The notes beneath the pieces are model-generated. The model had not been told where the DNA came from. It did not search any database and saw only the letters and a list, made by a program, of their open reading frames with translations. A DNA stretch of 64,000 bases from Chryseobacterium lacus (GTDB lineage: Bacteria > Bacteroidota > Bacteroidia > Flavobacteriales > Weeksellaceae), in NCBI RefSeq assembly GCF_003336205.1, contig NZ_QPIE01000004.1, forward strand, positions 124,001-188,000, in the 5' to 3' direction. Below, in pieces: positions 3,326 through 48,014 of the stretch. Numbering within the stretch: position 1 is the stretch's first letter; the number at the start of each line of letters is the position of its first letter. Both the position numbers and the translations under genes were made by a program.

Positions 3326-3364
3326 TTTTCCGAATCGAACAATTTTAATATTAAAAAAATTATT

Positions 3365-3898: not shown

Positions 3899-3901
3899 AC
3901 G

Positions 3902-3921
3902 TGGCCAAAAGGCCATTTTTT
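3902..3921 (+). terminator. Short terminator between the two stress genes
   Basis: TGGCC-AAAA-GGCCA is a perfect five-pair hairpin, followed by six T. It begins four bases after the DUF892 stop codon. Confidence 0.6.
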
Positions 3922-3945
3922 ATGAATAAAATTAATTTTAAAAAA

Positions 3946-4482
3946 ATGAAAAATCTAAATAATAAAAGAATTGCAGTACTCGCCGCCGACGGTTATGAAC
4001 AGTCTGAACTTGTGGAACCCATTAACGCATTAAAAGAAAATGGTGCTCAGGTAGAAATTATTTCCCTGAAATCCGGTGAAATCCGTGGAATGGTAGATCA
4101 TGAATGGGCAGAAAGCATTGCGGTGGACAAAACCGTGAAAGAAGCAAATCATTCGGAATATGACGCTTTATTGCTTCCCGGAGGTGTGCTGAATCCTGAT
4201 GCTGTGCGTTCTGATGAAGCAGCCGTAGCTTGGGTAAAGAAATTTTTTGAAGCAGAAAAACCTGTGGCCGCCATTTGTCACGGTCCGCAAACTTTAATTG
4301 ATGCTGAGGTAGTGAAAGGTAGAAAAATGACTTCCTATAAAGCCATTCATAAAGATCTTAAAAATGCAGGTGCCAATTGGGTTGATGAAGAAGTTGTCAC
4401 AGACGAAAATCTTACCACCAGCCGTTCTCCTGAGGATATTCCAGCATTTAATGAAAGAATAATAAAGGAATTCTCCAAGTAA
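3946..4482 (+). CDS. DJ-1/PfpI family protein (general stress protein 18 type)
   Basis: About 178 residues with the DJ-1/PfpI fold: KRIAVLAADGYEQSELVEP at the start (the glutamate of the active-site triad is in GYEQSE), LLLPGGVLNPDAVR in the middle, and the nucleophile elbow AAICHGPQ with the reactive cysteine near residue 105. Members of this subgroup act as deglycases, chaperones or cysteine peptidases; which one applies here is not visible. The first start codon in the frame (GTG 3901) lies in the terminator hairpin; ATG 3922 and 3946 are both possible, and 3946 fits the length of the family. Confidence 0.88.
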   Translation: MKNLNNKRIAVLAADGYEQSELVEPINALKENGAQVEIISLKSGEIRGMVDHEWAESIAVDKTVKEANHSEYDALLLPGGVLNPDAVRSDEAAVAWVKKFFEAEKPVAAICHGPQTLIDAEVVKGRKMTSYKAIHKDLKNAGANWVDEEVVTDENLTTSRSPEDIPAFNERIIKEFSK

Positions 4483-4543
4483 TTTCTTTTCAAATAAGAT
4501 AATCAGAACCAATTCGTCGCACATTTAAGAACCAACAAATTTA

Positions 4544-4573
4544 TTGCTCACAAAAGAGTTTTTAGTACATTTG
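4544..4573 (+). promoter_or_regulatory. Promoter of the AI-2E family gene
   Basis: TTG at 4544-4546 and TACATTTG at 4566-4573 are 19 bases apart, matching the Bacteroidota consensus. The -7 box ends 11 bases before the ATG. Confidence 0.6.
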
Positions 4574-4584
4574 AGTAAAGAAAA

Positions 4585-5688
4585 ATGACTATGGATAAAC
4601 TTTTTAAAGAGACAACGGTTCTGCGCGCACTGGTTCTGTTTTCTATATTTCTTGTCTTAGTCATCGCTTTTCAACTTAGTTATTTTGTAACGGGATTTCT
4701 TGGCGCAGTAACTTTATATGTTGTCACCAGAAACTTCTATCACCGATTGGTAGAAAGGAATCGATGGAACAAAAATCTGGCTACAATTCTCATTATTTTG
4801 TCCATTATCGTATGTTTCGGAATACCAATATGGATTGTTTTGGAAATTTTGATTCCTCAGATTAATGACGCTTTGAAAGATCCGCAAAAAATCATCGAAC
4901 GTTTTCAGCCTATCGTCCGTTATCTTCAGAATCATGAATTCATACAGCGTTTTGATATAGAGTTTACTTCTCACGATTTACTGAATGTGGTGAACAGGAT
5001 TATCAGTTATATTCCGTCTACGCTCAATTGGGTCGGACAGTTTTTCGCGAATATTCTGGTCGCGCTTTTTATTCTCTATTTTATGTTGATGGGAAGCCGC
5101 AGCATGGAGCGCAGCCTGAAGGAAATGCTTCCTTTTTCAGAAAAATCAAAACGGTATTTCATCAAAGAAAATCTGGATCTCATCCGTTCCAATGCGTATG
5201 GAGTTCCAATAATGGCCGTCAGTCAGGGCATTATTGCGATTATCGGCTATTCAATTTTCGGTGTGGAGCAAGCTGTCTTTTGGGGATTGATGACAGGTTT
5301 GGCTTCCATAGTTCCTGTTGTCGGAACGATGGTCGTTTGGGTTCCGCTCTGCATTTACCAGATGGCGACGGGCGATGTCAATTCCGGATTGTTGTTGTCG
5401 TTGTACTGCCTTATTTTCGTTGGAGGAATTGATAATGTGCTGCGTTTTACTTTATTAAAAAAAATGGCAGACATTCATCCGCTGATCACAGTGTTTGGCG
5501 TTATTCTCGGGTTGCAGCTTTTTGGAGCTATGGGTTTGGTTTTCGGGCCGCTGCTGCTGTCACTTCCCCGAATTTTATATGCTGTTTATAAAATAGAAAA
5601 ACGACAGTACCTTCCACTAACTACTGAAGAAACAGAGGAAGCATTTCTTGTTACCGATGAAAATATTACTGAAAATGTGGAAAAGTGA
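4585..5688 (+). CDS. AI-2E family transporter (DUF20 permease)
   Basis: A 367-residue inner-membrane protein with about eight hydrophobic segments: two at the N-terminus (residues 12-50), one near 62-85, a soluble stretch of about 90 residues, then a cluster from residue 150 to the end. The motifs FWGLMTGLASIVPVVGTMVVWVP and HPLITVFGVILGLQLFGAMGLVFGP are the family signatures. Characterised relatives export autoinducer-2 (TqsA), act as Na+/H+ antiporters or stay unknown, so the substrate cannot be deduced. A second ATG two codons downstream is equally likely as the start. It appears monocistronic. Confidence 0.85.
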   Translation: MTMDKLFKETTVLRALVLFSIFLVLVIAFQLSYFVTGFLGAVTLYVVTRNFYHRLVERNRWNKNLATILIILSIIVCFGIPIWIVLEILIPQINDALKDPQKIIERFQPIVRYLQNHEFIQRFDIEFTSHDLLNVVNRIISYIPSTLNWVGQFFANILVALFILYFMLMGSRSMERSLKEMLPFSEKSKRYFIKENLDLIRSNAYGVPIMAVSQGIIAIIGYSIFGVEQAVFWGLMTGLASIVPVVGTMVVWVPLCIYQMATGDVNSGLLLSLYCLIFVGGIDNVLRFTLLKKMADIHPLITVFGVILGLQLFGAMGLVFGPLLLSLPRILYAVYKIEKRQYLPLTTEETEEAFLVTDENITENVEK

Positions 5689-5795
5689 TTTTGCTTCGTT
5701 ATAACAATTCTCTCAAGATTTATCTTGAAACTACGCTAAAATCTAAAAGTTTATTTTAAAAAATCAATCTCGTTGGTAAAGTTAGAAAACTACAC

Positions 5796-7076
5796 TCAAT
5801 CTGACTCTAGCTTCGTGACTTCAATTTTGTCAATTCGGACACCTTCTACATGTAAAATTTTAAACAAAAGCCCTTTCCATTCCATCGTTTCTCCCGCAGC
5901 CGGAAAATGCTGAAGTTCATTAATGATGAATCCCGCTACAGTGTGATAATCGCCGGCTTCGTATTCCTCTTCCATGTCCAATTGATGAAGAAATTTGTAA
6001 AAAGGATATGACCCGTCCATTTCATAACGTCCTTTTTCATATTCTGTCATGTTAGCTTCCTCATGTTGATCTTCTATTGCATTTCCGATCAGGGCATCCA
6101 GAAGATCGTCCATCGTTACCATGCCTTCAAAAGTTCCGTATTCGTTCACCACAAAAGCGTAGTGCATTCGTTCTTCTTTTATTTTTTCCAGAACTTTATA
6201 GGCGGGCGTATTTTCGTAGACAGTGATGGGTTGTCTGAGGTAATTCTGCAGGTCAAAAGCAACTTCCGAACCGGCTACGGGGAAAATTTCCTTCAGCAAA
6301 ACCAATCCCAGAAGATTGTCAAGATTTTTATGAACCACTGGATATACGGAATGTGGCGATTCCTGAACTTTACTTTTTATGGTAAAACCATCATCCTGAA
6401 TATCAAAATAGATAAGATCCTGGCGATGCGTCATCAATTCTCTTACTTTACGGTCGCCCAGGGCAAAAACGCGCTGTACAATCTGTTGTTCTATTTCCTG
6501 AACATCACCTCCATCTGCACTTTCTTTCACCATCGCTTTTATTTCTTCTTCGCTGACGATGTTTTCATTTCCGCCTTTAATTCCAAAAATACCCAAAATC
6601 AGATTATTGGTAGTTGTTAAAAGCCAAATAAAAGGCCTTGTAATCACTGAGACCAAAGTCATCGGCTGCGCCATCAAAATGGCGATTTTCTCCGGAAACA
6701 TCAGCCCGATTCTTTTCGGAATCAATTCTCCTAAAACAATAGAAAAAAAAGTGAGGATAATAAGCACAACAGTTACCGACAAAGTATCGGCGTAAGGCAT
6801 CAGTAAAGGAATATTGCTGAAAAATGTTTTGACGTCTACTGTAATTTTTTCGCCACTGTAAATTCCGGTAAGAATTCCGATAAGGGTAATTCCGATTTGA
6901 ACGGTGGAAAGAAAAATATTCGGGTTTTCTGAAAGATTCAGGGCTTTTTGTGCATGGGAATTCCCTTTGCGGGCCGCACTTTCTAGCTTAAATTTTTTCG
7001 CAGAAACCAGTGCGATTTCACTCATGGAGAAAATTCCGTTCAATAAAATAAGAGTAAAAATAATAAAGATCTCCAT
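5796..7076 (-). CDS. CNNM/CorC (hemolysin C) family membrane protein with CBS pair
   Basis: The 426-residue protein has the full three-part layout: a CNNM transmembrane domain in residues 1-150 (ILLNGIFSMSEIALVSAKKFKLE is its opening helix), a CBS pair around 205-335 (VRELMTHRQDLIYFD; YAFVVNEYGTFEGMVTMDDLLDALIG), and a CorC_HlyC domain from about 345 (YPFYKFLHQLDMEEEYEAGDYHTVAGFI). Relatives are implicated in Mg2+ and Co2+ efflux; older annotation as hemolysin is not supported for most. The start is 24 bases after the mutS2 stop, so the two are probably cotranscribed. Confidence 0.9.
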   Translation of the reverse strand: MEIFIIFTLILLNGIFSMSEIALVSAKKFKLESAARKGNSHAQKALNLSENPNIFLSTVQIGITLIGILTGIYSGEKITVDVKTFFSNIPLLMPYADTLSVTVVLIILTFFSIVLGELIPKRIGLMFPEKIAILMAQPMTLVSVITRPFIWLLTTTNNLILGIFGIKGGNENIVSEEEIKAMVKESADGGDVQEIEQQIVQRVFALGDRKVRELMTHRQDLIYFDIQDDGFTIKSKVQESPHSVYPVVHKNLDNLLGLVLLKEIFPVAGSEVAFDLQNYLRQPITVYENTPAYKVLEKIKEERMHYAFVVNEYGTFEGMVTMDDLLDALIGNAIEDQHEEANMTEYEKGRYEMDGSYPFYKFLHQLDMEEEYEAGDYHTVAGFIINELQHFPAAGETMEWKGLLFKILHVEGVRIDKIEVTKLESD

Positions 7077-7100
7077 TGATATTCAGTTGATTATTGTTTT

Positions 7101-9248
7101 CTACACCCTTTCCAGTTCATCTGCATTTATGGTAGTTTTGAATGTGCCGTAGTTTACTACCACTTTAGTTTTGGTGATTTTTTCAATCGTTCCAACACTG
7201 GTAGATCCGGTGATACGAACGCGCTGTCCGGTTTTCAGCCAAATTGCCCGTTCATCTTTGCGCTGCTGATCCATTTTCTCGTTGGTTTCCGCAATTTTTT
7301 CTATTACATCTACTTTTTTCAATTGTTGGGTAATTTTCCGTTTGATAACCTGCAGTTTTTTGTTCTCATCTTTATCACTTCCCAAACGCCTGAATTTTTC
7401 CTGCTCCAGAATTTTAACAAAATCTTTCACCACATCTTTCCGGGATTTTCCTTTGATATACGAATCTATAAAAGTTTCAATTTTGTTCCCGAACTGAAGT
7501 TTGCGGTGTTCCTCTTCATACAGTTTTTGAAAATTATAAAGCTTCTGCTGCAACTGCTCATTGAGCTTCTGGAGATTTCCTCGCTTATCTTCTACAGATT
7601 CCTTCTGCTCGGTAAGATTCGTCTTTAATTTTTCAACTTCAAATTTTTCCTGTTGCAGTTTTACGATGGTTTTATCTAGGTTCACCACATCTTTTTCCAC
7701 TTTTTCTCTTGCTTTTTTAATGATAAATCGCGGAATTTTATTTTTCTCAGCCACTTCAAAAGTGAACGAACTTCCGGCCTGTCCAACTTCCAGTTTGTAC
7801 AAAGGTTCCAGGGAATGTTCATCAAAAAGCATGGCTGCATTTTCCGCATTCGGAAGCTGCTCCACGACCAGTTTGATATTCGTGTAATGCGTGGTGATAA
7901 TGGCAAAACTCTTCTTGTCGTAAAAATATTCCAGAAAACTTTCAGCCAATGCGCCGCCGAGTTCAGGGTCTGATCCAGTGCCAAATTCATCGATCAATAA
8001 CAGTGTTTTATGATCGGCTTCCCGAATGATGCCCGACATTTTTTTGAGCCGGGAAGAGTAGGTGGATAGATGGTTTTCAATCGATTGATTGTCTCCGATA
8101 TCGGTCATGATTTTGTCGAAAAAAAACATTTCCGATTTCGGATGTACCGGTACCAGAATCCCGCTCTGAATCATCAGTTGAAGCAATCCTACCGTTTTCA
8201 AGGTGATGGATTTTCCACCGGCATTGGGCCCGGAAATACAAATAATGCGGTTATGCTCTGTAAGCGTGAGCGATTGTGGATAAATTTTCTTTTTTTCAAC
8301 ACTGTTTCTCAGCCAAAGCAACGGATGAAAAGCATCCCTCAGCCGAAGCGTAGGATGGCTGTTGATCTTAGGAAGGACCGCATTTATTTTTTCTGCGAAT
8401 TTTGCTTTGGCTCTTATCAGATCCAAATCGAAAATATATTTTTGGTATGATTCCAGCCATGGTTGATATTCAGCAATTTCAGCAGTAAGCTTGCGCAGAA
8501 TCCGGTCGGTCTCCTTTTTTTCTTCTTCCTCATTTTCGCGGAGTTTGAAGTAATGTTTCAGGACAGATTCGGGCTGAATATACGTGATAGAACCGGTTTT
8601 GGAAATACCCAACACTCTTCCCGGTACCCGTTTTTTAAATCCGGATTTCACAGCCAGCACACGTTGGTCTTCCAGGATGGTTTCGCGAATTTCATCTAAT
8701 AAATCGTTTTGAGAATAGGTGGCTAATGCCCTGTTAAAATTCTCCTGAATGGCTTTTTTAGCATGTTGAATTTCGGTTCTCAGGACTTTAAGATCCGGCG
8801 ATGCTTCGCTTTTTACCTCTCCAAAACGGTTGAAAACTTTGTCAATTTTTTCAATAATAGCTTTGTGAAATTCTAAAGCCTGAACTTCTTTCAAAAGCAA
8901 AGGAAAAGTTTCGGAAAAAGTGGGAAAGAATTTCTGTAATTTCCCGATTTGCTCTGTAATATTTTTGATTTTCAGAAACGCCTTGTTTTCCAGATGGAAA
9001 TTCTCAATAATCATGAGTCTCAGTTCCTGTTCAATATCTTCATATTCATGAAAAGGAATGGCATTGGAACTTTCAAAACTGGTAAGAAACTCCGAGGTCT
9101 TTTTTAAAGAAATTTCAGCTTCGTCCCTGCTCATGGGAAGCAGGCTCATGATTTTATCTTCTGTTTTCGGGGAGTACGCGAACGGAGCAATCTCCGAAAG
9201 GAGTTCCGGGAATTCGAGTTCTTCTAAATCTTCTTTCTGGATGTGCAC
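7101..9248 (-). CDS. mutS2: MutS2-type ATPase without Smr domain
   Basis: About 715 residues starting V(M)HIQKEDLEELEFPELL. It carries the MutS core domain and an ABC-type ATPase with Walker A GPNAGGKSITLKTVGLLQ, signature and Walker B LLLIDEFGTGSDPELGGA, followed by a long coiled coil (VNLDKTIVKLQQEKFEVEKLKTNLTEQ and on). MutS2 proteins are not mismatch repair factors; they suppress recombination or resolve stalled ribosomes in studied species. The C-terminal Smr nuclease typical of Firmicutes MutS2 is absent here: the protein ends in a small KOW-like beta region (GQRVRITGSTSVGTIEKI). A GTG start at 9248 fits both the family N-terminus and the promoter four bases upstream. Confidence 0.87.
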   Translation of the reverse strand: MHIQKEDLEELEFPELLSEIAPFAYSPKTEDKIMSLLPMSRDEAEISLKKTSEFLTSFESSNAIPFHEYEDIEQELRLMIIENFHLENKAFLKIKNITEQIGKLQKFFPTFSETFPLLLKEVQALEFHKAIIEKIDKVFNRFGEVKSEASPDLKVLRTEIQHAKKAIQENFNRALATYSQNDLLDEIRETILEDQRVLAVKSGFKKRVPGRVLGISKTGSITYIQPESVLKHYFKLRENEEEEKKETDRILRKLTAEIAEYQPWLESYQKYIFDLDLIRAKAKFAEKINAVLPKINSHPTLRLRDAFHPLLWLRNSVEKKKIYPQSLTLTEHNRIICISGPNAGGKSITLKTVGLLQLMIQSGILVPVHPKSEMFFFDKIMTDIGDNQSIENHLSTYSSRLKKMSGIIREADHKTLLLIDEFGTGSDPELGGALAESFLEYFYDKKSFAIITTHYTNIKLVVEQLPNAENAAMLFDEHSLEPLYKLEVGQAGSSFTFEVAEKNKIPRFIIKKAREKVEKDVVNLDKTIVKLQQEKFEVEKLKTNLTEQKESVEDKRGNLQKLNEQLQQKLYNFQKLYEEEHRKLQFGNKIETFIDSYIKGKSRKDVVKDFVKILEQEKFRRLGSDKDENKKLQVIKRKITQQLKKVDVIEKIAETNEKMDQQRKDERAIWLKTGQRVRITGSTSVGTIEKITKTKVVVNYGTFKTTINADELERV

Positions 9249-37579: not shown

Positions 37580-37954
37580 CTATTCCTTCTTTTCCTGTAA
37601 TAGCCTGATTTCAGTCCGAAGTTGCTGATTTTCTTCTTTCAAATGTTTTATAAAATCCTCTAAATTTTTGATTATAGATTCTGGAATATTGTGATAGGTA
37701 CTGAAATTTCCTGAGTTTTCCGCAATGGTAGAATTTTCATAATTTATAGATATAGCGGGAGTGTCCTCCTCAAATATTTCATCAAAAGAAACCTCAAGAA
37801 CTTGAGCAACTTTTTCCCATTCTTGCTTAGTGATACGCACATCACCCGACTCTTTGCGGCAATAATTTGAAACATCTGTGGGCAATGCAGCTGCTAACTA
37901 TTTCTGTGACATGCCTTTTTTGATACGGATCTGGCGGAGTTTTTCTTTAACCAT
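37580..37954 (-). pseudogene. XRE-family regulator interrupted by an amber codon
   Basis: From the ATG at 37954 the frame reads MVKEKLRQIRIKKGMSQK, then TAG (37900-37898), then LAAALPTDVSNYCRKESGDVRITKQEWEKVAQVLEV and on, all in one frame. This is an HTH of the XRE type (MSQKxLA...VSNYxRKES) broken by a single substitution at codon 19. The rest is a linker and a short coiled coil (IIKNLEDFIKHLKEENQQLRTEIRLL). It faces the first precursor peptide gene, like the intact XRE gene faces the second. Restart at a TTG (37885) could give a truncated product lacking the first helix. Confidence 0.75.
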
Positions 37955-37975
37955 TAGATTATGATTTTAGACATA

Positions 37976-37991
37976 TGTACATATTTGTACA
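37976..37991. promoter_or_regulatory. TGTACA-TATT-TGTACA candidate operator
   Basis: Two TGTACA palindromes separated by four bases lie 22 bases upstream of the broken XRE gene, in the divergent region. The spacing resembles a regulator dimer site. Function is not shown. Confidence 0.35.
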
Positions 37992-38036
37992 ATTGCATAC
38001 GAAAACTTGCAAAAAAATACAATGAATTTATTACTT

Positions 38037-38063
38037 TTGATATAATTCCTCTTTTTACATTTG
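38037..38063 (+). promoter_or_regulatory. Promoter of precursor peptide 1
   Basis: TTG (38037-38039), 16 bases, TACATTTG (38056-38063). The leader that follows starts with the repeat shared with cassette 2. Confidence 0.6.
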
Positions 38064-38066
38064 ATA

Positions 38067-38119
38067 TGTCAATAATGACACAAAATCATTAAAAATTATT
38101 TTATGAAAACATTAGAAAA
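38067..38119 (+). repeat. 53-base direct repeat, copy 1, with TGTCA-N4-TGACA inverted repeat
   Basis: These 53 bases equal 40178-40230 except for one position, the first base of the start codon (ATG here, GTG there). The first 14 bases are the perfect inverted repeat TGTCA-ATAA-TGACA, three bases after the -7 box, a likely operator. The repeat ends after codon 5 of the precursor (MKTLEK). Confidence 0.9.
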
Positions 38120-38339
38120 AATTCAAAATTCAATTTTGGAAGAAAAGTTGCTAAATCGACTTTCAATGAAAAATGTTCAAGGTGCAGGAAATAGCACAGG
38201 AGCAGGTGAGGTATGTCAACCAGACCTCACAGGTCAGCTTTCAATATATATTTATACTGGAGATGATTATGTGGAAGGGATTGGGATGATTTATTTTAAT
38301 AAAAAAATCACTGATCGACTGTGTGATATTCAACCTTAA
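38103..38339 (+). CDS. GG-leader type natural product precursor peptide 1
   Basis: 78 residues. The leader MKTLEKIQNSILEEKLLNRLSMKNVQGAG is of the class found in Bacteroidota ribosomal peptides exported by C39-peptidase ABC transporters, though here the expected GG is GA. The core after it (NSTGAGEVCQPDLTGQLSIY and on) contains Thr, Ser, Lys plus Asp/Glu, the residues that ATP-grasp ligases join in graspetides. It is followed by the first secreted family protein. Its own maturase fragment (39431) is wrecked, so any processing would need enzymes encoded elsewhere. Confidence 0.65.
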   Translation: MKTLEKIQNSILEEKLLNRLSMKNVQGAGNSTGAGEVCQPDLTGQLSIYIYTGDDYVEGIGMIYFNKKITDRLCDIQP

Positions 38340-38369
38340 TACACTGATCATAATCTTCTCATTTTATTT

Positions 38370-39434
38370 ATGATGAAAAGGATTTTGTTTATTATGGTAT
38401 GCTTTCTTGGCAAAGCATACCATTGTCAGGATTATACATTGCAGAATAAACCGTTACTTCATTATTATGATCTTGTAAATAAAGCAGAAAACTATATTAC
38501 TAAAAAAAGCTGGGATTCTGCCTTTGTCCATTATAAATTAGCATTTAAGAAAAATAAACAGCCACCGGCAATTGATTTGTATAATAGTATGCTTGTCGCA
38601 TTAAAATTGAACAAGCAGAAATTTGCATCTGGAAAATTCCGCTCGTTACAATGCCTTCATTACCAATTTGAGGATGATTTTGCCAAAAACATGCATGCAT
38701 CTACCAAACAAACTAAATGCAGGAATGTTATAGATGAGAATTATAGATCCGAGTTAGACAAGCTGTATGTTATAGATCAGAAATATAGAAAACTATCTAA
38801 GGGCAATTATGCACAGTACAGAAATGAACTCACCCAAACGGACAGTATTGTAGCGGTAAAATTGATGCAATTAATTTCTAAAAAGGGCTTTCCTAACGAG
38901 TATGATATTGGACTCACTTCTGCCAATAAAGATTTCATGCAAAACTTCTATTTTATTATTCATCATCAGTTAGCAACCAATATTTATAGTCCACAAATTG
39001 TCAATTTTTCTAACCTTTTGGTGAAGGCTTTAAACGACGGAAAAATAACCCCTGCTAATGCTGCGTATCTGATAGACCTTAATAATGGAACTACAAATTA
39101 TGAATTACGTTTGTTTTCAGTGCAAGGAATTGTTAAAAACAACGGAACTATGACAGATTCGATAAGGGCATTGAATAAAGTTGATTATTATATCAGTAAA
39201 GCAATATATCCCGAAAATCAGAATGAGAGAATTAGAAAAATCATTATAGAGAAAAACCAGAATCGAAAAAAAATTGGCTTGAGTAATTTGGAAAATATGC
39301 TGGAAAAAAGTCTTTTCAGAAGAAAAAATAAAGCATTTGTTTTTCCGGATGCTTCGGTCAGCATCAGTAGCTTTGCGACCGATAAAGATATTACTGATTA
39401 TATACAAAATATGGGCTTAATTAAAATCCAATGA
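38370..39434 (+). CDS. Secreted cassette protein 1 (DUF6624-like)
   Basis: 354 residues with a type I signal peptide (KRILFIMVCFLGKAYHCQ). It is a paralogue of the proteins at 40560 and 43719. Shared landmarks: YDLVNKAENYI, FKKNKQPPAIDLYNSML, ELDKLYVIDQKYRKLSKG, TDSIV, LISKKGFPNEYDIG, AAYLIDLNNGT, and NQNRKKIGLSNLE. The pattern DQxYR, D..., GxP..., ...HQ... in the middle resembles DUF6624, a guess from memory of the family. The function is unknown. The stop overlaps the ATP-grasp start by ATGA, so it was cotranslated with the maturase and probably acts in the same system. Confidence 0.75.
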   Translation: MMKRILFIMVCFLGKAYHCQDYTLQNKPLLHYYDLVNKAENYITKKSWDSAFVHYKLAFKKNKQPPAIDLYNSMLVALKLNKQKFASGKFRSLQCLHYQFEDDFAKNMHASTKQTKCRNVIDENYRSELDKLYVIDQKYRKLSKGNYAQYRNELTQTDSIVAVKLMQLISKKGFPNEYDIGLTSANKDFMQNFYFIIHHQLATNIYSPQIVNFSNLLVKALNDGKITPANAAYLIDLNNGTTNYELRLFSVQGIVKNNGTMTDSIRALNKVDYYISKAIYPENQNERIRKIIIEKNQNRKKIGLSNLENMLEKSLFRRKNKAFVFPDASVSISSFATDKDITDYIQNMGLIKIQ

Positions 39435-39594
39435 TTTTATTGATAAGTTTAGCCAACGATTCCGTAACGGATGCTATTTGCAACTATCTCAGTTGTGAAA
39501 ATAAATTTTTTCTTCCCAGAAAGATTTAGAATGTATTGAAAGTTCAGGCAGGGGGTATATTACGAAAGCTATTTCATAAATGCAACCCGTTTTT
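39431..39594 (+). pseudogene. Wrecked ATP-grasp peptide maturase (GwsG-like), cassette 1
   Basis: The ATG overlaps the previous stop and opens MILLISLANDSVTDAICNYL, the same start as the better preserved copy at 41633 (MILLISLDNDTVTDTICNWL). After about 27 codons an internal deletion of roughly 340 bases joins to a piece that matches 42063-42145, reading KDLECIESS...YITKAIS, now out of frame and with a TAA in place of a Glu codon. The match ends at ATGCAACCCGTTTTT (39580-39594), where another deletion begins. Confidence 0.7.
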
Positions 39595-39596
39595 AC

Positions 39597-39704
39597 AGAA
39601 GGGAAGGAAGTTCTCTTTTGGGCTTAAGCGATGCAGCAGAAAATTTGGGTTTTCGTACAATGGGAGTGCAGGTGGATTTCAAAACATTGGTGGAAGAGGT
39701 GCCG
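39597..39704 (+). pseudogene. Scrap of a C39-peptidase ABC exporter
   Basis: One frame of 36 codons reads REGSSLLGLSDAAENLGFRT then MGVQVDFKTLVEEVP. This matches what I know of the N-terminal C39 peptidase domain of Bacteroidota bacteriocin exporters (the stretch after the HitREGtSLlGLSdAAE motif). The catalytic Cys and His and the rest of the transporter are gone. It shows that the decayed cassette once extended into an exporter gene that cuts GG leaders. After position 704 the similarity stops, and the end of the XRE gene begins at 39770. Confidence 0.6.
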
Positions 39705-39769
39705 TCTTATGATTTGATGAATTTATCCATAAAACCATTTTGCTTTTCAAGTAATTCGGAAATACTTTT

Positions 39770-40084
39770 TCAAGTTTCTAAAATAGACTGAATAATTTCG
39801 GTAGGAGTATAGTTGTTTACGGTAACATTGTTAGTATGTGCCACATAATTTCCTTTTCTGAATTTGTTATGAGAAATAACCACATTAGAAACATTTTCTA
39901 AGAGTTCATAGATGTCGATACGGTAAAAATTGCATATTTTGATAATGTTATCCAAACTTGGTTTGGCTTTGTCTGCTTCCCATTTTACGACAGCGGTTTT
40001 TGAAATATCTATCTGTGTAGCAAACTCTTCCATAGAGATACCTTTATCTGTTCGCAGATTACGAAGTTTGGTACCGAGTGTCAT
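39770..40084 (-). CDS. XRE-family transcriptional regulator of cassette 2
   Basis: 104 residues. The HTH is GTKLRNLRTDKGISMEEFATQIDISKTAVVKWEADKAKPSLDNIIKICNFYRI, a complete XRE domain; a tail with NVTVNNYTPTEIIQSILE follows, similar in kind to the end region of the broken regulator at 37580. It is divergent from precursor 2, 129 bases apart, and the shared TGTCA-N4-TGACA element lies in front of that precursor. It is the intact counterpart of the pseudogene and could still control both cassettes. Confidence 0.88.
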   Translation of the reverse strand: MTLGTKLRNLRTDKGISMEEFATQIDISKTAVVKWEADKAKPSLDNIIKICNFYRIDIYELLENVSNVVISHNKFRKGNYVAHTNNVTVNNYTPTEIIQSILET

Positions 40085-40112
40085 AGTATATTTTGTAAAA
40101 AGTTAAAAAAAC

Positions 40113-40138
40113 AAAAGTTACCAAAAAAAGAAACTTTT
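40113..40138. promoter_or_regulatory. Inverted repeat AAAAGTT...AACTTTT in the divergent region
   Basis: Seven-base arms at 40113-40119 and 40132-40138 flank 12 bases, between the XRE start and the -33 box of precursor 2. A second candidate regulator site; weak evidence. Confidence 0.3.
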
Positions 40139-40146
40139 ATTTACCT

Positions 40147-40174
40147 TTGGTTTAAAGAAGCCTTTTTAGTTTTG
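40147..40174 (+). promoter_or_regulatory. Promoter of precursor peptide 2
   Basis: TTG (40147-40149), 17 bases, TAGTTTTG (40167-40174). It is followed three bases later by the shared repeat, the same geometry as in cassette 1. Confidence 0.6.
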
Positions 40175-40177
40175 AAT

Positions 40178-40230
40178 TGTCAATAATGACACAAAATCAT
40201 TAAAAATTATTTTGTGAAAACATTAGAAAA
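40178..40230 (+). repeat. 53-base direct repeat, copy 2
   Basis: Second copy of the element at 38067-38119, differing only at the first base of the start codon. It contains the TGTCA-ATAA-TGACA inverted repeat at 40178-40191. Confidence 0.9.
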
Positions 40231-40471
40231 GTTGGAGAACTTTAAACTTGAGAATGAGAAATTGAAAATGACCAGAGGTGGATCTAGGACACTAGATATA
40301 GGTGTCGGCGGACCTGATACTGGTGCAGGTACTCGTACCGTATGCGACTGGCCATCTCCGGGTTGGACTACTGTAATGGCATTTACAGCAGATTATAGTG
40401 GTCCTGGAGGTATTCTTGGTCTGAATGAAACGGTTCTATGTCAAGAGCCTTCTGTAACAATTTTACCATAA
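40214..40471 (+). CDS. GG-leader type natural product precursor peptide 2
   Basis: 85 residues with a GTG start fixed by the shared repeat. The leader MKTLEKLENFKLENEKLKMTRGG ends in a canonical double glycine, the cut site of C39 peptidases. The core contains glycine-rich stretches, a Cys-Asp-Trp-Pro run (VCDWPSPGWTTV) and Thr/Ser plus Asp/Glu, with a second Cys near the end (LCQEPSV). It is followed by a hairpin with T run and then the second secreted protein. No complete maturase or exporter gene is in the window. Confidence 0.72.
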   Translation: MKTLEKLENFKLENEKLKMTRGGSRTLDIGVGGPDTGAGTRTVCDWPSPGWTTVMAFTADYSGPGGILGLNETVLCQEPSVTILP

Positions 40472-40477
40472 ATATAG

Positions 40478-40548
40478 TGAGAGACTGTCGTAGGAAAATT
40501 ATTATATAATAGTTTAATTAAGGAAAACTTGGTAGTCTCTCATTTTTT
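40478..40548 (+). terminator. Long-loop hairpin with T run between precursor 2 and its companion
   Basis: TGAGAGACT (40478-40486) and AGTCTCTCA (40534-40542) pair perfectly over nine bases around a 47-base AT-rich loop, followed by six T. It may end most transcripts after the precursor so that the peptide is made in excess over the downstream proteins. Confidence 0.6.
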
Positions 40549-40559
40549 ATATTTAGTTT

Positions 40560-41636
40560 ATGAAATTCTTTTTAATAATCTTTATTTTTCTAAGCACATT
40601 TTGCCACTCTCAGAACTATGAAGTGAAGAATCAAGAGTTGTTGATATATTTTGACAATATCCGTCTGGCAGAAAATGCTATCTTAGAAAATCAGCCCCAT
40701 ATTGCTCATTCTTTCTATAAAAAATCTTTTTCGATTAACCAAAGACCATTTGCAAAAGACTTGTATAACAGCATGCTGAATGCAAAAAAACTCGGAATAT
40801 TTGAATATGCATACGATAAATACTCAGCTTTGAAATGTTTGCAATATCCTTTTACTGCGAATTTTGTGAAGAATAATTTTCCTAAAAAGTATGGTAAGAG
40901 AAAAGAAAAATGTAAGAACAATCTGGATATTACTTATAAGAAACAGCTAGATTCATTGTTTGAATTAGATCAATATTATCGAAAATTAGCGGAAGGAAAT
41001 CTTATGAATAAAAAGAAAGAAATTACAGAAAGTGATAGTATTACTTCCACTACATTGTTAAAATTAATCGAACAAAAGGGATTTCCCAGTGAATATGATA
41101 TTGGTTTAAGTTCAATAAACAGTTCACTGATGCAAAATTTCTATCTTATTATTTGGCATCAAATGGCTATGAATCATGTGAGTACGCAAAAAGTTAATTT
41201 TTCTCAAAAGCTCATCGAAGCACTCAATAATGGGAAAATACTTCCGGAACATGCATCTTTCTTAATTGATTTGAATAATGGAACCAGTGATTTCTGGCTT
41301 AGACATTTTACTGTTTTTGGTTTTCTTACAGATAATGGCACTGGCGAATCCATAAGAGATCAGATTTTTAACCAAACTTCGAAAAAGGACTGTTGTTATA
41401 TTCATAATTATTATAAATCGGAAACCCGGGATACGGAGTTTGAAAAGACGATAAATAAAGTAAATAACAACAGAAAAAAATTAGGGCTTTCTTCCTTGGA
41501 GGAAACCGTCAAATTCAGTGTATTCAGTTTGAATAATAATGATTATATATTTCCTCAAAAAATGATAGAAATGTCTTTTGTTTTTACTGAAGAACAAATA
41601 AAAATGCAAAAGGCACCACTTATCAAAATCCCATGA
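40560..41636 (+). CDS. Secreted cassette protein 2 (DUF6624-like)
   Basis: 358 residues, signal peptide MKFFLIIFIFLSTFCHSQ, paralogue of the proteins at 38370 and 43719. It has the same landmarks: FSINQRPFAKDLYNSML, QLDSLFELDQYYRKLAEG, SDSITSTTLLKLIEQKGFPSEYDIGLSS, ASFLIDLNNGTSDFWLRHF, NNNRKKLGLSSLEE. It also has a CC pair (KKDCCYIHNYY) shared with copy 3 but not copy 1. The stop overlaps the ATP-grasp ATG by four bases. Frame and all landmarks are intact, in contrast to the maturase downstream. Function unknown. Confidence 0.77.
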   Translation: MKFFLIIFIFLSTFCHSQNYEVKNQELLIYFDNIRLAENAILENQPHIAHSFYKKSFSINQRPFAKDLYNSMLNAKKLGIFEYAYDKYSALKCLQYPFTANFVKNNFPKKYGKRKEKCKNNLDITYKKQLDSLFELDQYYRKLAEGNLMNKKKEITESDSITSTTLLKLIEQKGFPSEYDIGLSSINSSLMQNFYLIIWHQMAMNHVSTQKVNFSQKLIEALNNGKILPEHASFLIDLNNGTSDFWLRHFTVFGFLTDNGTGESIRDQIFNQTSKKDCCYIHNYYKSETRDTEFEKTINKVNNNRKKLGLSSLEETVKFSVFSLNNNDYIFPQKMIEMSFVFTEEQIKMQKAPLIKIP

Positions 41637-42399
41637 TCCTCTTAATCAGTTTAGACAACGACACGGTGACAGATACTATCTGCAATTGGTTGGCTTTGCA
41701 AAATAAAAAGTTTATTCGAATCAACAGCAGCCAGTCCATAACAGGGATACATTTTGATTTTAATACATCTTCACATTTTATTTCTATAAACGAGAATAAG
41801 TTTAGTCTTAAAGATATTACCTCTGTTTTCTACAGAAACGGAAATATAACGTTCTAAAATTTTTTGTGGGATTTGGATGAAAATATGGAGAAGTTCTTCT
41901 TTTCCGAGTACAAATCAATAGCAGATTTCATTAGCTATTTATTAGAAAAATCAGGTGCCAAGATTTACGGAAACTTTCGTGTGAAAGAAGTAAATAAATT
42001 GAAAGTTCTTCATTTTACAAAACAACTCGGTTTTAAAATATCAGGAAGTCAAATTTTTTCTTCTCCGAAAGATTTAGAATGTATTGAAAGTTCAGACAGA
42101 AGGTATATTACGAAAGCTATTTCAGAAATGCAACCCGTTTTTGTTGATGATGCTTTGTATCTTAATTATACAAGAGATATTCTAATGGAAGAGATTTTAG
42201 AAAAAGAACAGAGAATTATCCCAACGCTGTTGCAGGAAAAATTCACAAAGAATATGAAATTAGAGTTTTTTTCTTTGAAGAGAAAATTTGGGCTATTGCT
42301 ACTTTTGATTTTTCAGGAAACACCGACGTACGGAATATGAAAACCAGTGATAAAAATACATTCCTTATGTTATTGCGAAAATCTAGCTTTTTCTCTTAA
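41633..42399 (+). pseudogene. Decayed ATP-grasp peptide maturase (GwsG-like), cassette 2
   Basis: The best preserved of the three. The frame reads MILLISLDNDTVTDTICNWL..., hits an in-frame TAA at 41855-41857, and continues in the same frame NFLWDLDENMEKFFFSEYKS through GNFRVKEVNKLKVLHFTKQLGFKI and YITKAISEMQPVF. Near 42236-42241 a base is missing from an A run; in the shifted frame the protein goes on as KEYEIRVFFFEEKIWAIATF and DFSGNTDVRNM, the ATP-grasp metal and nucleotide region. It then stops at 42397, short of a full ligase. Such ligases make omega-ester or omega-amide rings in graspetides. Two lesions plus truncation make it inactive. Confidence 0.72.
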
Positions 42400-42514
42400 A
42401 ATTCTTAGTTTACTGCCAGTTTCCATGTTATATTTTTTTTGTATAGAAATTAATTCCTTTAAATTAGGAGTTTATTTCTTTTAGTTTATAAATATTTGAT
42501 TAAAGTTTGTATCA

Positions 42515-43462
42515 ATGGAATTAAAAAAAACAAAACCATTTATTATCAATAGAAAATTAAGTAATTTTTATTATGTTTTGTTTATTTTTTATTTTGTCAG
42601 TTGCAAAACTAACCAAACTAATGCTGGAACAAAACATGAAATAAACTATATTCCTTATTATTTAGAATTGTACAAGGCAGACAGTCTAAGAATGATAGGT
42701 GAAAATGAAGAAGCCTTTAAAAAATTAGATAGTTTATTCACGATTTATGAACCGCTTAACTATTCCGTTACAAAAGAATTGGTTTACTATGTGAAATATG
42801 CAGCATCAACAAAAAAGAACATTAATTATAAGTCACACTTAACCAATCTTATTGCAGAAAGAGGATATCCTTATAAATGGATTATACAAGACAGTGATTT
42901 AATGAATGTCTATATCATTAACGGTTTTTCTAAAAATGATATAAAACAATTGGACAGCATTTTTAATGCCCAGATTAATTGGGAATACAGAAAAGAACTT
43001 AAAGAAATGTTTACCCAAGATCAGTTGAGCCGTGGAAAACTCATCGAACCTTCTGTGGATGAGTACAATGCAAAGCGACTAATACAGCTTATTACCCAAT
43101 ATGGATATCCTGATATAAAAACCGTTGGAAGATTAGAAGAAGATAGAATAATGCTTGGGATTATGTATTTCCATTTATCAAGAATTGATAATTATGCAGG
43201 ACTCAAAAATTTATTGATAGAAAAACTTAAAGAAGGAAAAGCTAATCCTTTTGACATCGAAAATATGATTACCTCAAAATATCTTCTTTATTATCATCAG
43301 GACTATTTTGGAAAAATAGATAGAGAAACGAATGGATTAAAAACAATAAAATTTGATGTTCCTTTAGATACGTTTAATATCCGGAGAAAGAAATATGGGC
43401 TACCCAGTTTACAATTTGCCAGAATGAAATATGATTTCTATAAAAATAATACTAACCCTTAA
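42515..43462 (+). CDS. Lipoprotein distantly related to the cassette proteins (DUF6624-like)
   Basis: 315 residues with a hydrophobic N-terminus ending in a lipobox-like FYFVSC (Cys about 30). The C-terminal half reads ELKEMFTQDQLSRGKLIEP, DEYNAKRLIQLITQYGYPDIKTVG, then IMYFHLSRIDN, which matches the DUF6624 pattern better than the three cassette proteins do. The N-terminal half has a similar helical layout (LYKADSLRMIGENEEAFKKLDSLF). It ends 17 bases before precursor 3. Function unknown; it may be a further, lipid-anchored member of the same system. Confidence 0.65.
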   Translation: MELKKTKPFIINRKLSNFYYVLFIFYFVSCKTNQTNAGTKHEINYIPYYLELYKADSLRMIGENEEAFKKLDSLFTIYEPLNYSVTKELVYYVKYAASTKKNINYKSHLTNLIAERGYPYKWIIQDSDLMNVYIINGFSKNDIKQLDSIFNAQINWEYRKELKEMFTQDQLSRGKLIEPSVDEYNAKRLIQLITQYGYPDIKTVGRLEEDRIMLGIMYFHLSRIDNYAGLKNLLIEKLKEGKANPFDIENMITSKYLLYYHQDYFGKIDRETNGLKTIKFDVPLDTFNIRRKKYGLPSLQFARMKYDFYKNNTNP

Positions 43463-43478
43463 TTTAATTTTTTTTACT

Positions 43479-43628
43479 GTGGAAAATCTTGAAAAATTAG
43501 CTGAATTTCAGCTTAAAAATGAAGAACAATTAAAAATTGTTGGTGGTAATCGAAACACTACCGGTGGAGGAAGTTATGTGGAGTATAACTGGCCAACACA
43601 AGGAGTAAATACATTTGTAACCTACTAG
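43479..43628 (+). CDS. Short GG-leader precursor peptide 3
   Basis: 49 residues from a GTG start. The leader V(M)ENLEKLAEFQLKNEEQLKIVGG has the same charge pattern as the others and a double glycine; the core NRNTTGGGSYVEYNWPTQGVNTFVTY is short and has few acidic residues (one Glu), so it differs from the other two. It lacks the 53-base repeat upstream. The double-glycine leader and the following secreted-family gene make it a real member of the array, though perhaps a remnant. Confidence 0.55.
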   Translation: MENLEKLAEFQLKNEEQLKIVGGNRNTTGGGSYVEYNWPTQGVNTFVTY

Positions 43629-43691
43629 TGATATCTGGGATGGCAACGTTTAGGTTGTACCTATATGATGGAACCATAATTTTAGTTAGAG

Positions 43692-43719
43692 AGAAGCTAA
43701 CATGCCTCTATTTTTTTTA
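43692..43719 (+). terminator. Possible hairpin with T run between precursor 3 and its companion
   Basis: TAGAG and CTCTA can pair around a 14-base loop and are followed by a run of eight T, placed as in cassette 2. The stem is short; an alternative GTTAG...CTAAC pairing exists. Confidence 0.35.
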
Positions 43720-44799
43720 TGAAAAAATTGTTTTTATGTTTAGTTATACTGCATAGTTATTTCGGATTTTCACAAGTCGTGGAAATTACTAATCCTGATT
43801 TAATTAAGTATTATGAGATAATTAACAGAGCTGAAATATCTATCACTAACCAAAATATGAAAGAGGCTTCGCATTTGTACAGGGAAGCTTTTGAGAATAA
43901 TCCTCAACCGCACGGAAAAGATCTTTATAATAGCATGTTAGTTTTTTTAAAAATAAAAAATTATCCTCATGCATATAAGAATTACAGTAAGCTAAAATGT
44001 TTGCAATTCAGTTTCCAAAAAAATTTTCTGGAAAATCATTTTCCCATCCGTTTTAAAAACAAAAAGCAGCGTTGCCAGATAAATCTCGATTATAAACTAA
44101 AGAAAGAATTAGACTCGCTTTATGTTTTAGATCAGAAATACAGGAGGTTATCAAAAGGTGATTACGCCAAGGTTCGTACAGAGCTAACCACTACTGACAG
44201 TATTGTATCCAGTAATTTAGCAAGCCTCATAGCAGAAAAGGGTTTTCCGAACGAATATGATATTGGTTTCGGATCTGCTCATGCGGGGTTTTCTCAGAGA
44301 TTTTATGTGATCATTTTGCATCAACTTGCTAATAATATTTTTAGTCCGCAGGTGATTAATTTTTCGAAACAATTAAACGAAGCATTAAACCAAGGCAAGA
44401 TTTCACCAGAAAGTGCTTCATTTTTATTAGACTTAAATAATGGAAGAAATCAGTTTTTTTCAAAACATTTTGCTATTAATGGATTTGTCTATAGCAACGG
44501 TAGTAATCTTTCAATATGGGATCAAACGGAGAAGGGGATCTCAATTCGCGATTGCTGTTATGTTACTTATGGATTTTATCCTGAAAAACGCACAGAAGAA
44601 CTACATTCTTTTAATAAAGCAGCTCAATGAAAACCGAAAGAAAATTGGTTTGTGTACTATTGATGAATCGATAAAGAAAAGTGAGTTTTCTTTAAAAAAT
44701 AAAGATTTTTTTATTTCGGAAAACACTCAAGAAAATCATTCATTCGATGATGAAAAAGATGCACATTTCCTGAGAGACCATATGTTCAAAATCCAATGA
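43719..44799 (+). pseudogene. Secreted cassette protein 3, frameshifted
   Basis: The signal peptide MKKLFLCLVILHSYFGFSQ and most of the protein are intact: ELDSLYVLDQKYRRLSKG, LIAEKGFPNEYDIG, ASFLLDLNNG. The first frame stops at 44628 after EELHSFNKAAQ. In another frame the paralogue sequence continues IKQLNENRKKIGLCTIDESI and ends at 44799. Joining the frames requires one base change in the TTTTAATAAAG stretch at 44610-44620. The C-terminal 55 residues are therefore lost unless the shift is suppressed. Confidence 0.7.
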
Positions 44800-45017
44800 T
44801 TGTGGAAGGGGAGGTGGCGCATATTTCTTTAACACCTGATGATGAGGGAAATTACTATGTCGATATTGTTCTCCCAAAAGGTTTAAAAACATCTTATAAC
44901 AAGACTCTTCCATTTGATAAAGAAGTTAAAGGCAATGCCGATATTGTTACTCAGGATTTGAGGCTGATTGAACGTTTCTTCTATCAAATAAGAAAATTAT
45001 TAGGTTATCAAATCTAA
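44796..45017 (+). pseudogene. HlyD-type adaptor C-terminus fused to a maturase start codon
   Basis: The ATG overlaps the previous stop exactly as the ATP-grasp genes do in cassettes 1 and 2, and the first two codons (ATG ATT) match theirs. The frame then reads EGEVAHISLTPDDEGNYYVD, LPKGLKTSYNKTLPF and ERFFYQIRKLLGYQI, which I recognise as the C-terminal end of HlyD-family adaptors of C39-exporter systems. A single deletion seems to have removed the ligase, SPASM maturase, exporter and most of HlyD. As a 73-residue frame it could be translated but has no plausible function. Confidence 0.65.
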
Positions 45018-45212: not shown

Positions 45213-48014
45213 TTACAATTTCTCTGCCAGATAACGTGCTGTATGCGATGCTTTAATATCTATTAAATCTTCAGGAGTTCCGGCAAACACAATTTCTCCG
45301 CCATGTTTTCCGGCATCGGGGCCAATATCAATAAGATAATCTGCGAATTTAATAATATCCGGATGGTGCTCAATCACCATTAGTGAATGTCCCAGATTAA
45401 CGAGTGCCTGAAAAGATTTCAGTAATTTGTTGATGTCATGAAAATGAAGTCCTGTAGAAGGTTCATCAAAAATAAAAAGCGATTTCTCGGTAGTCGCCCC
45501 TTTCACCAGAAATGAGGCGAGTTTGATCCGCTGTGCTTCTCCTCCGGAAAGGGTAGAAGAGCTTTGTCCCAGTTGCAGATAACCCAGCCCCACATCTTGA
45601 AGCGGCTGCAGCTTGGTAACGATTTTATTTTCGCCGTTATCATGGAAGAAAATAAGCGCTTCATCCACGGTCATTTGGAGAATATCGGAGATATTTTTAT
45701 CATCATATTTTACTTCCAGAATTTCACTTTTGAAACGGGTTCCTTTGCAGGTTTCACATTCCAATTCAATATCTGCCATAAATTGCATGGAAACGCTGAT
45801 GACGCCTTCGCCCTTACAGTCTTCGCACCTTCCACCATCCACATTGAAGGAGAAATGTTTGGATTTGTAACCCATCATTTTCGCCAGTTTTTGTTTGGCA
45901 AAAAGATCCCGGATATCGTCATACGCTTTCAGATAAGTCACCGGATTGGAACGTGACGATTTTCCAATTGGATTTTGGTCAATCATCTCAATATTCTGAA
46001 TGGTTTTTTTATTAAATTCCACCGAATCGTAATCTCCTTTTTTGCCTCCTTTTCCCAATTGGATCTGCAGGTCGTTGGAAATAATTTCTTTCATCAGCGT
46101 TGATTTTCCGCTGCCTGAAACTCCGGTGATCACCGTAAGGCATTCCAAAGGAATATCCACATCTATATTTTTAAGATTATTCTGTCGGGCTCCGCGAACT
46201 TTAACAAATTCTTTTGGCGTTTTTCGTTTTTCAGGAACTTTTATTTCCAATGTTCCCGTAAGGTAGTGGGAAGTAAGGGTATCCGCATTTTTAAGTTCTT
46301 CAAAATTTCCCGCAAACATCAGTTCTCCACCCAAATATCCGGCTTCGGGACCGATATCAATAATATAATCGGCAGCACGCATCACATCCTCGTCATGTTC
46401 TACAACAATAACGGTATTTCCCAAATCCCGCAGATTTTTCAGAACGGTAATCAGGTTTTCGGTATCGCGTGAATGGAGGCCAATAGAAGGTTCATCCAGA
46501 ACATAAATAGAACCAACCAGCGAACTGCCCAAACTCGTAGCCAGATTAATCCGCTGGCTTTCGCCGCCGGAAAGTGTGTTGGAAGTTCTGTTGAGCGTCA
46601 GATAACCCAAACCTACTTTCAGGAGAAACGAAAGACGGGTAGAGATTTCGTACAGCAGTCGTTTGGCGACATGGGTTTCATACTCAGACAGTTTCAGAGA
46701 CTCTATGGTGGGTAAAAGTTCATCAAGCGGAAGTTCAATCATCGATTGTATGGTGTGTCCACTGATTTTTACCCATTCAGTTTCGGGCCGTAATCGTAAC
46801 CCTTCACACGTAGGACAGGTCGTTTTTCCGCGAAACCGCGACAGCATTACCCGGTACTGAATTTTATACAGATTTTCTTCTACCATTTTGAAAAACGAAG
46901 AAATAGAAGGGAAACTCCGGCTCCCATCTCCTTTCCAAAGCAGGTTTTTCTGGTCTTTGGTCAATTGGAAATAAGGCTTGTGAACGGGGAAATCTTTTCC
47001 GGTTCTTTTAATAAAAGCATTTTTCCATTCGCTCATGCTTTCTCCTTTCCAGCAGGCTACGGCATCCTCAAAAAGCGATAAATTCTTGTTGGGAACCACG
47101 AGATCTTCGTCTATACCGATGACTTTTCCGTAACCTTCACATTCCGGACAGGCGCCGTAAGGATTATTAAAACTGAAAAAATGGACATTCGGTTCAGAAA
47201 ATTCAATGCCGTCCAACTCAAATTTGTTTGAAAATTCCTTTACCGTATTTGTTTCGGTACTTTTCACTGAACAATAGCCATGGCCTTCGTAGAAAGCAAT
47301 CTGAATAGAATCGGCCAGACGCTGCAGGAAACTTTCATCTTCTTCATATTGGAAACGATCGATCACCAGATGGATTTCCATATTTTCTTCCGGGACAAAT
47401 CCAAAACTCTCCAGATCTTCAATTTCTACCGTATTGCCGTTAATATCCAAACGGGTAAATCCGGAAACTTTCAGTGTATTCAGGGTTTCATTGAATTTTT
47501 CTTTTTCAAATGCCAAAGGTGCCCGAAGCGCGAAAAGGGTTTCCTGTCTTTGGTTTTTAATATAATCAATAACATCCGTCACATGATCCTTTTTCACTTC
47601 ATCACCCGAAACTGGCGAATAGGTGCGTCCGATGCGGGCAAAAAGCAGTTTCAGATAATCATAAACTTCTGTGGAAGTTCCTACCGTAGACCGAGGATTG
47701 GAAGAAATTACCTTTTGCTGAATCGCAATAGAAGGTGCAAGTCCTTTGATATCGTCCACTTTTGGTTTCTCCAATTTCCCAAGAAACTGACGGGCATAAG
47801 AACTCAGGCTTTCCACATACCGGCGCTGACCTTCTGCATAAAGAGTATCAAAAGCCAAAGACGATTTGCCGCTTCCTGAAACGCCGGTGATGACGATCAG
47901 TTTATTTTTTGGAATGATAACATCTATGTTTTTCAGATTGTTAAGATGCGCATTCTTAATATAGATTTCTTTTTTTATATCGATTTTATCTTCGTTGATC
48001 ATGGGAATCATCAT
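45213..48014 (-). CDS. uvrA: UvrABC excinuclease subunit A
   Basis: UvrA finds bulky DNA lesions in nucleotide excision repair. The 933-residue protein has two ABC ATPase modules: Walker [27 protein letters not shown] near residue 45 and [14 protein letters not shown] near residue 635. There are two zinc modules (CPECEGYG...CPTCEG and CEDCKGEG...CETCKGTRF), and two signature motifs [12 protein letters not shown] and [12 protein letters not shown]. Length is standard. Several Met codons at the start (48014, 48011, 48002) are possible. It is transcribed towards the accessory island. Confidence 0.97.

Follow-up and report, generated by a model that had tools for sequence, protein, structure and literature searches.

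Three cassettes with broken maturation genes

The window analysed in this work is a stretch of 64,000 nucleotides from Chryseobacterium lacus (contig NZ_QPIE01000004.1), whose positions 37580 to 45017 contain an array of three cassettes related to the grasp-with-spasm clusters for ribosomally synthesised and post-translationally modified peptides (RiPPs). Each cassette comprises a precursor peptide, a secreted companion protein of about 355 residues (signal peptide read by eye) and a start codon situated in a four-base ATGA overlap with the end of the companion gene (Table 1). An original prediction had described this array and a different lesion after each start codon, and the observation was confirmed. 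Of its finer points, the gene order and the ATGA overlap stand, but the overlap given as ATGATT reads ATGATC in the second cassette, and the GG-type leader assigned to all three precursors is present in precursors 2 and 3, while the leader of precursor 1 ends in GA.

The three lesions proved to be of the predicted kinds. In cassette 1, an internally deleted gene for the ATP-grasp protein GwsG is followed by a scrap of a C39 exporter (39431–39704); the DNA around the scrap of GwsG residues 148–172 (39503–39594) is 93.5% identical to positions 42051–42142 (E 4e-35), the protein match reaching only E 0.008. In cassette 2, positions 41633–42286 match GwsG (TIGR04192, E 5e-32) with one internal TAA, and the remnant up to 42384 exhibits two frame-changing single-base differences, near 42237 and 42351, from the same-genus genome G001 and has lost about the last quarter of the gene. 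In cassette 3, the start codon leads directly into residues 363–433 of the 434 of HlyD (44799–45011, 69% identity, E 1e-29). With the exception of the protein match of residues 148–172 taken alone, the matches of the GwsG, C39 and HlyD remnants are beyond chance, and they bear out the proposed grasp-with-spasm origin.

The rest of the genome (2.375 Mb, rated 99.96% complete) was searched for intact counterparts. The best GwsG attains 111 bits, with an internal stop, against a TIGR04192 cut-off of 230 bits, and no second gene in the genome matches this model. GwsS (TIGR04193) gave 0 matches in the genome in a search that does match the relatives G012 and G161, and the C39 peptidase (PF03412) gave no match in the genome, the C39 exporter being found only as the array fragment. 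The HlyD adaptor is present as a fragment in the array, the rest of the genome not having been searched for HlyD. Because the genome is without an intact GwsG and without GwsS and C39 peptidase matches, the peptides cannot be matured or exported in the usual way. The array shares with grasp-with-spasm clusters (GwsG, GwsS, C39 and HlyD) the type of precursor, the gene order and the ATGA overlap, and differs from them in its broken, sub-cut-off GwsG, in the missing GwsS and C39 peptidase matches and in having three adjacent modules.

The UvrA-type gene (uvrA) that lies directly after the array in both species of the genus (window 45213–48014, 933 aa, named by eye) served as the yardstick of divergence between the window and G001. 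The GwsG remnant carries 33 nonsynonymous and 14 synonymous changes, with a ratio of nonsynonymous to synonymous rates (dN/dS) of 0.56, compared with 33 and 131 changes and 0.06 for uvrA; GwsG is therefore hardly constrained any more. The predicted decay that left precursors and companions behind is correct as regards the remnants, but the third precursor and its companion are damaged as well: a frameshift near 44600 disrupts companion 3, and precursor 3 stops at 43628, shorter than the precursors of relatives. Two modules, not three, are therefore open.

Table 1. Coordinates of the features of the array in the window
Feature	Position	Strand	Remarks
XRE-type regulator 1	37580..37954	-	named by eye from translation; divergent to cassette 1; in-frame stop after residue 18
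Palindrome TGTCAATAATGACA	38067..38080	.	promoter 1; possible regulator site
Precursor peptide 1	38103..38339	+	78 aa; leader ends GA; core similar by eye to L013 core
Companion 1	38370..39434	+	354 aa; open; signal peptide by eye
GwsG residues 1–28	39431..39514	+	ATGA overlap with companion 1; 57% over 28 residues, E 3e-6
GwsG residues 148–172	39526..39600	+	after internal deletion; contains stop; protein E 0.008
C39 exporter scrap	39600..39704	+	residues 43–77 of L012 protein; 83% over 35 residues, E 6e-14
XRE-type regulator 2	39770..40084	-	named by eye; open; divergent to cassette 2
Palindrome TGTCAATAATGACA	40178..40191	.	promoter 2
Precursor peptide 2	40214..40471	+	85 aa; GTG start; GG leader; TIGR04149 12.7 bits, under cut-off 25
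Companion 2	40560..41636	+	358 aa; open; signal peptide by eye; structure predicted
GwsG remnant	41633..42384	+	ATGA overlap with companion 2; TAA at 41855; about last quarter absent
Companion-like lipoprotein	42515..43462	+	lipobox by eye; of a kind seen next to many GwsG genes in the family
Precursor peptide 3	43479..43628	+	GTG start; GG leader; core truncated
Companion 3, first frame	43719..44630	+	frameshift near 44600
Companion 3, continuation	44614..44799	+	other frame
HlyD C-terminal end	44796..45017	+	residues 363–433 of 434; fused to companion 3 start-codon overlap

None of the three precursors scored above the cut-off of any family model in the family scan. The lipoprotein, the two regulators and the palindrome TGTCAATAATGACA were absent from the original prediction. 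The palindrome occurs at two exact places in the window, in promoters 1 and 2, and also in the promoter of the related locus L013; together with the divergent XRE-type regulators (named by eye), it suggests local control and may be a regulator site. N-terminal scraps of C39 recur before the next cassette in relatives (L012:373-618 and L076:3633-3860, both in reverse-complement coordinates, and L168:6922-7099) as they do at window 39600–39704, as if new cassettes join near these borders.

The companion family and its genomic contexts

At E 0.001, the companion family was detected in 39 of the 320 genomes of the bacterial family, the weakest matches being short and partial. GwsG is present in 172 of the 320, so that many GwsG clusters are without this type of companion. 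A search with the alignment yielded 18 companion loci; searching named genomes with a single sequence brought no confirmed locus, and a search of plasmids gave no match. Among 31 companion loci, 18 contain GwsG, two a GwsG fragment (L072 and L077) and ten no cluster genes in the stretch retrieved around the companion; the remaining one (L059, Chryseobacterium polytrichastri) lacks GwsG and retains just the end of GwsS, C39 and HlyD lying upstream. The order precursor, companion, GwsG, GwsS, C39, HlyD is found in L013 (Amniculibacterium aquaticum KYPW7) and in L066. In L071 (C. soldanellicola), an otherwise complete-looking cassette carries GwsG in two frames, possibly a further decaying cluster. 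In L168, at 3200-8457, a precursor-like peptide is paired several times over with a GLPGLI-type protein (the latter named by eye), and the last GLPGLI-type protein occupies the usual position of the companion.

The lipoprotein encoded at 42515–43462 is a distant companion (hhalign E 5e-7). In 56 loci chosen by hand among the best GwsG matches listed (no random sample; two loci of a separately read set of 18, L168 and L169, are not among them), at least one companion of this lipoprotein type stands upstream of GwsG in 54 of 59 units and none in five; in 25 of the 54, it overlaps GwsG by four bases.

As to the identity of the companion, its profile aligns with DUF6624 (PF20329) over 151 columns (hhalign probability 91.6, E 8e-7), and the lipoprotein aligns with the DUF6624 profile with a probability of 67.9 and E 5e-5. 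HMMER found no PF20329 match in the companions of the window, in 20 aligned family members or anywhere in the genome, and Pfam and NCBIfam scans of the companions returned only weak names under their cut-offs. The best reading of these alignments is that the companion is a distant DUF6624 relative, which differs from plain DUF6624 proteins in its missing HMMER match and in an additional N-terminal part resembling tetratricopeptide repeats (TPR). This part precedes a C-terminal domain in the structure model of companion 2 (pLDDT 87), and the family has an invariant His, Arg and Asp. A structural aligner returned mostly TPR proteins on residues 24–113, with a best Z of 10.8, in a range that helical repeats can reach by chance; the first three rows, one of them a designed protein, had root-mean-square deviations of 1.4–3.0 over 73–87 residues. 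With Foldseek, neither the whole model nor its C-terminal part matched the PDB at E 0.001, and the companion profile gave no match among PDB sequences.

The companion is probably cluster 23 of a graspetide survey (PMC8939145). The part of that survey dealing with cluster 23 reports it from nearly every branch 5 locus, along with a small LPL protein encoded just before the SPASM gene, and describes many members with a signal peptide and a lipoprotein site and with conserved His and Arg; in that part, its function is left open and an enzymatic activity considered, and the graspetides characterised so far are all given as protease inhibitors. Proteins of 60 residues that carry an LPL motif (by eye) are also located between GwsG and GwsS in clusters of relatives. 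The term grasp-with-spasm was not found in the literature searched, and no immunity family is named for this RiPP class as far as that literature goes.

Exchange, covariation and retention of the companion

The similarity between cassettes is unevenly distributed. Cassettes 1 and 2 are 93% identical over 69 bases of promoter and leader start and over 92 bases of inner GwsG, and 77% identical over 64 bases around the GwsG start, whereas their companions are 43–44% identical (about 43% for the companions of the array). Companions 1–3 have end branches of 0.74–0.79 changes per site in a tree with an unresolved base (calculated without L078), and their mutual distance approximates that to companions of other genera. 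Recent tandem duplication followed by plain decay does not explain the array, and the predicted origin of sister clusters by duplication, which the differing lesions favour, is weakened by this divergence of the companions against flanks of 93%. An old duplication may nevertheless underlie the array, as a single clade for companions 1–3 is not rejected (AU p 0.24).

A case of exchange was found among relatives. L068 and L074 are similar in leader (0.92), GwsG (0.90) and GwsS (0.90) but differ in core (0.49) and companion (0.63), their DNA identity falling past the leader and recovering at the 3' end of the companion gene. L071, compared with L073 and L074, shows the reverse, with values of 0.61–0.65 for the leader, 0.85–0.86 for the core, 0.73–0.74 for the companion, 0.72 for GwsG and 0.73–0.75 for GwsS. 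In approximately unbiased (AU) tests on groups picked after the trees were seen, GwsG rejected L071+L073+L074 (p 1e-71) and L067+L068 (2e-6), GwsS rejected L071+L073+L074 (4e-4) and the companion rejected L068+L073+L074 (6e-7). These comparisons provide one well-supported case, not many, in which core and companion were exchanged as one unit between conserved flanks.

Covariation was assessed by partial Mantel tests on two sets. Of the 31 companion loci, 14 in which a precursor was recognised and both GwsG and GwsS were present made up the first set. There, core and companion remained correlated given GwsG (r 0.58, 0 of 2000 permutations); the values were r -0.09 (p 0.76) for core and GwsG given the companion and r 0.18 (p 0.05) for leader and companion given GwsG. 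The second set consisted of 42 lipoprotein-type units, left from the 59 GwsG units after setting aside one near-copy and 16 without exactly one companion, a recognised precursor with leader site, or GwsS; here core and companion given GwsG again correlated (r 0.53, 0 of 1000), and core and GwsS given the companion did not (r -0.04, 787 of 1000). By these measures, the companion follows the core beyond what GwsG accounts for in both sets.

A leader/core junction is also the border of similarity between the window and G001, where GwsG is truncated in the same way and an HlyD tail is likewise present. Over 1033 bases that take in the lipoprotein and the precursor 3 leader, the two agree at 98.5%; this identity stops after the cleavage site, past which G001 has a different core that continues into the HlyD tail. 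The near-identical tract extends over window 42080–43551 compared with L014 (G001), alongside a synonymous divergence of about 25% at uvrA. Because dS between the two species is only 0.014 at the lipoprotein, far under the 0.25 of uvrA, the lipoprotein tract was probably exchanged recently. The first codon of the lipoprotein is not conserved in G001, whose contigs break off to either side of cassettes 1 and 2.

Companions can exceed the single recognised precursor of a locus: L152 has two, L154 three and L160 two before GwsG and one after it. The copies of L152 are sisters, those of L154 fall in one small clade with one nearest L163, and those of L160 and L164 are non-sisters. Companions are also found apart from clusters. 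Seven companions of one genus, including records named Chryseobacterium balustinum, C. luquanense and Chryseobacterium sp. YIM B08800, form an orphan clade (support 100/99); the 900 bases upstream of them yielded no precursor, and GwsG does not adjoin them. Their neighbours are constant in all seven: a small lipoprotein and an 800-residue protein that we take to be PheT. The family search found no GwsG match in six of the seven genomes (G078, G123, G132, G136, G209 and G233); the seventh, G161, has one, consistent with its cluster L066. The dN/dS values of the clade (0.09–0.23, 21 pairs) resemble those of intact clusters (0.10–0.16, 13 pairs), and the orphan companions are, judged by these ratios, kept under purifying selection. 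The original prediction had held that purifying selection in relatives would speak against its decay model, and this is partly what was found, as companions of relatives are constrained where no GwsG was detected. A further orphan companion is situated in L098 (Bergeyella zoohelcum), where GwsG and GwsS gave no match and C39 only a short fragment (G025:C1:2076141-2076251).

Possible roles of the array and its companions

With a probability of roughly 0.55, we interpret the locus as a remnant array of three retired peptide-protection modules from grasp-with-spasm RiPP clusters, in which the companion would have served as cognate self-protection. Each module would unite a precursor core with its own secreted companion; new modules would have displaced or joined older ones, and deletions would then have removed GwsG, GwsS, C39 and most of HlyD. 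Whether released into the periplasm or held as a lipoprotein, the companion would protect the cell from the cognate modified peptide, probably by binding it. The open companions 1 and 2 may still protect against the peptides of neighbours; decay of companion 3 has already set in. A protein with this role would be expected to covary with the core, to be able to outnumber the peptide and to survive the loss of the biosynthetic genes. Self-protection appears to fit better than the alternatives because the companion is exported, covaries with the core, can outnumber the precursors and is kept without GwsG.

Orphan CDI/Rhs (contact-dependent inhibition and Rhs) modules and the orphan immunity arrays of type VI systems bear a likeness to the array. 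The part of PMC5361080 on the type VI arrays describes rows of differing alleles, a module exchange for which a conserved stretch upstream serves as the anchor, and a protective gene that is retained once the weapon is displaced. The present pattern, taken as an analogy, fits that description in that exchange of core and companion is found in relatives (one clear exchange, two covariation sets) and in that the seven-member orphan clade of relatives is retained by selection without weapon machinery. As to the alleles, the companions of the array diverge deeply, yet one clade for them is not rejected (AU p 0.24). Unlike the type VI arrays, the array consists of a modified peptide and a secreted partner, two of its precursors are still open, and immunity is putative.

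Several points weigh against this interpretation. The immunity step comes from a comparison of genes and, in our estimate, has about one chance in two. The exchange of core and companion may reflect mere physical linkage between conserved flanks, the AU groups were chosen with the trees in view, the 14-locus set keeps near-copies (L051, L052 and L054) and counts the two-frame GwsG of L071 as intact, and in the 42-unit set GwsG adds information of its own (core with GwsG given the companion also r 0.40, 0 of 1000). The orphan clade could have acquired another function. In the array itself, companion 3 is broken, companions 1 and 2 were seen in no close relative at hand, and the lipoprotein shows no sign of constraint against G001 (dN/dS 0.97, from 13 changes, too few to tell). 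Of the columns invariant in the other companions, companion 1 departs at 3 of 44, companion 2 at 4 of 45 and companion 3 at 0 of 41, against 0–3 departures in each of the 27 others (L077–L080 left out of the count); companions 1 and 2 are therefore near normal. The C-terminal domain has no fold match that explains it, its best Z in the structural aligner being 7.0. Finally, Carter et al. (2026) propose that DUF6624 acts in biosynthesis, for groups apart from their SPASM-linked group 14, and report that the graspetide rosaritide gave no growth inhibition.

It is less probable, at odds we would call unfavourable, that one cluster was duplicated in tandem and decays neutrally, the open precursors and companions merely being not yet broken. 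The lesions are real and differ by cassette, cassettes 1 and 2 share promoter, leader start and inner GwsG at 93% identity, breaks also occur in companion 3, precursor 3 and regulator 1, and a single clade of companions 1–3 is not rejected (L077–L080 left out); against this stand the companions, 43% identical with branches of 0.74–0.79 beside flanks of 93%, the exchange of core and companion in relatives, and the purifying selection on the orphan clade elsewhere.

Slightly less likely again is a companion acting as a core-specific biosynthetic or export factor, such as a protease, an isomerase or a periplasmic chaperone. GwsG and GwsS are cytoplasmic enzymes, whereas the companion is exported according to its leader peptide. 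Covariation with the core, the invariant His, Arg and Asp and the four-base overlap with GwsG in 25 of 54 lipoprotein-companion units would all suit such a factor, but selection keeps companions where the genome gave no GwsG match, their copies can exceed the precursors, and in L168 a GLPGLI-type protein (by eye) takes the companion's place. Carter et al. (2026) report the co-occurrence of DUF6624 with several graspetide groups and raise a biosynthetic role for it in general, which also speaks for this alternative. That the lesions are assembly or sequencing errors in functional clusters is very improbable: two of the GwsG indels do lie in short A runs, but large deletions fuse GwsG to C39 and companion 3 to HlyD, GwsS and the C39 peptidase were not found in a 99.96% complete genome, and G001 shares the truncated GwsG and an HlyD tail.

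If the partner is a cognate protection protein, these peptides are weapons, which would help to account for the diversity of their cores, and orphan companions would be a genomic marker of which strains meet which peptides. The guess so far for the DUF6624 proteins that accompany graspetides has been that they are enzymes of biosynthesis, and protection would be a different role. For the Flavobacteria as a whole, we regard it as an evenly balanced proposition that grasp-with-spasm RiPPs are polymorphic weapons, in which the core and a DUF6624-like exported protein would form an exchangeable peptide-immunity module; such modules would pile up in arrays, and, where a genome is unable to make the peptide, orphan immunity genes would persist under selection.

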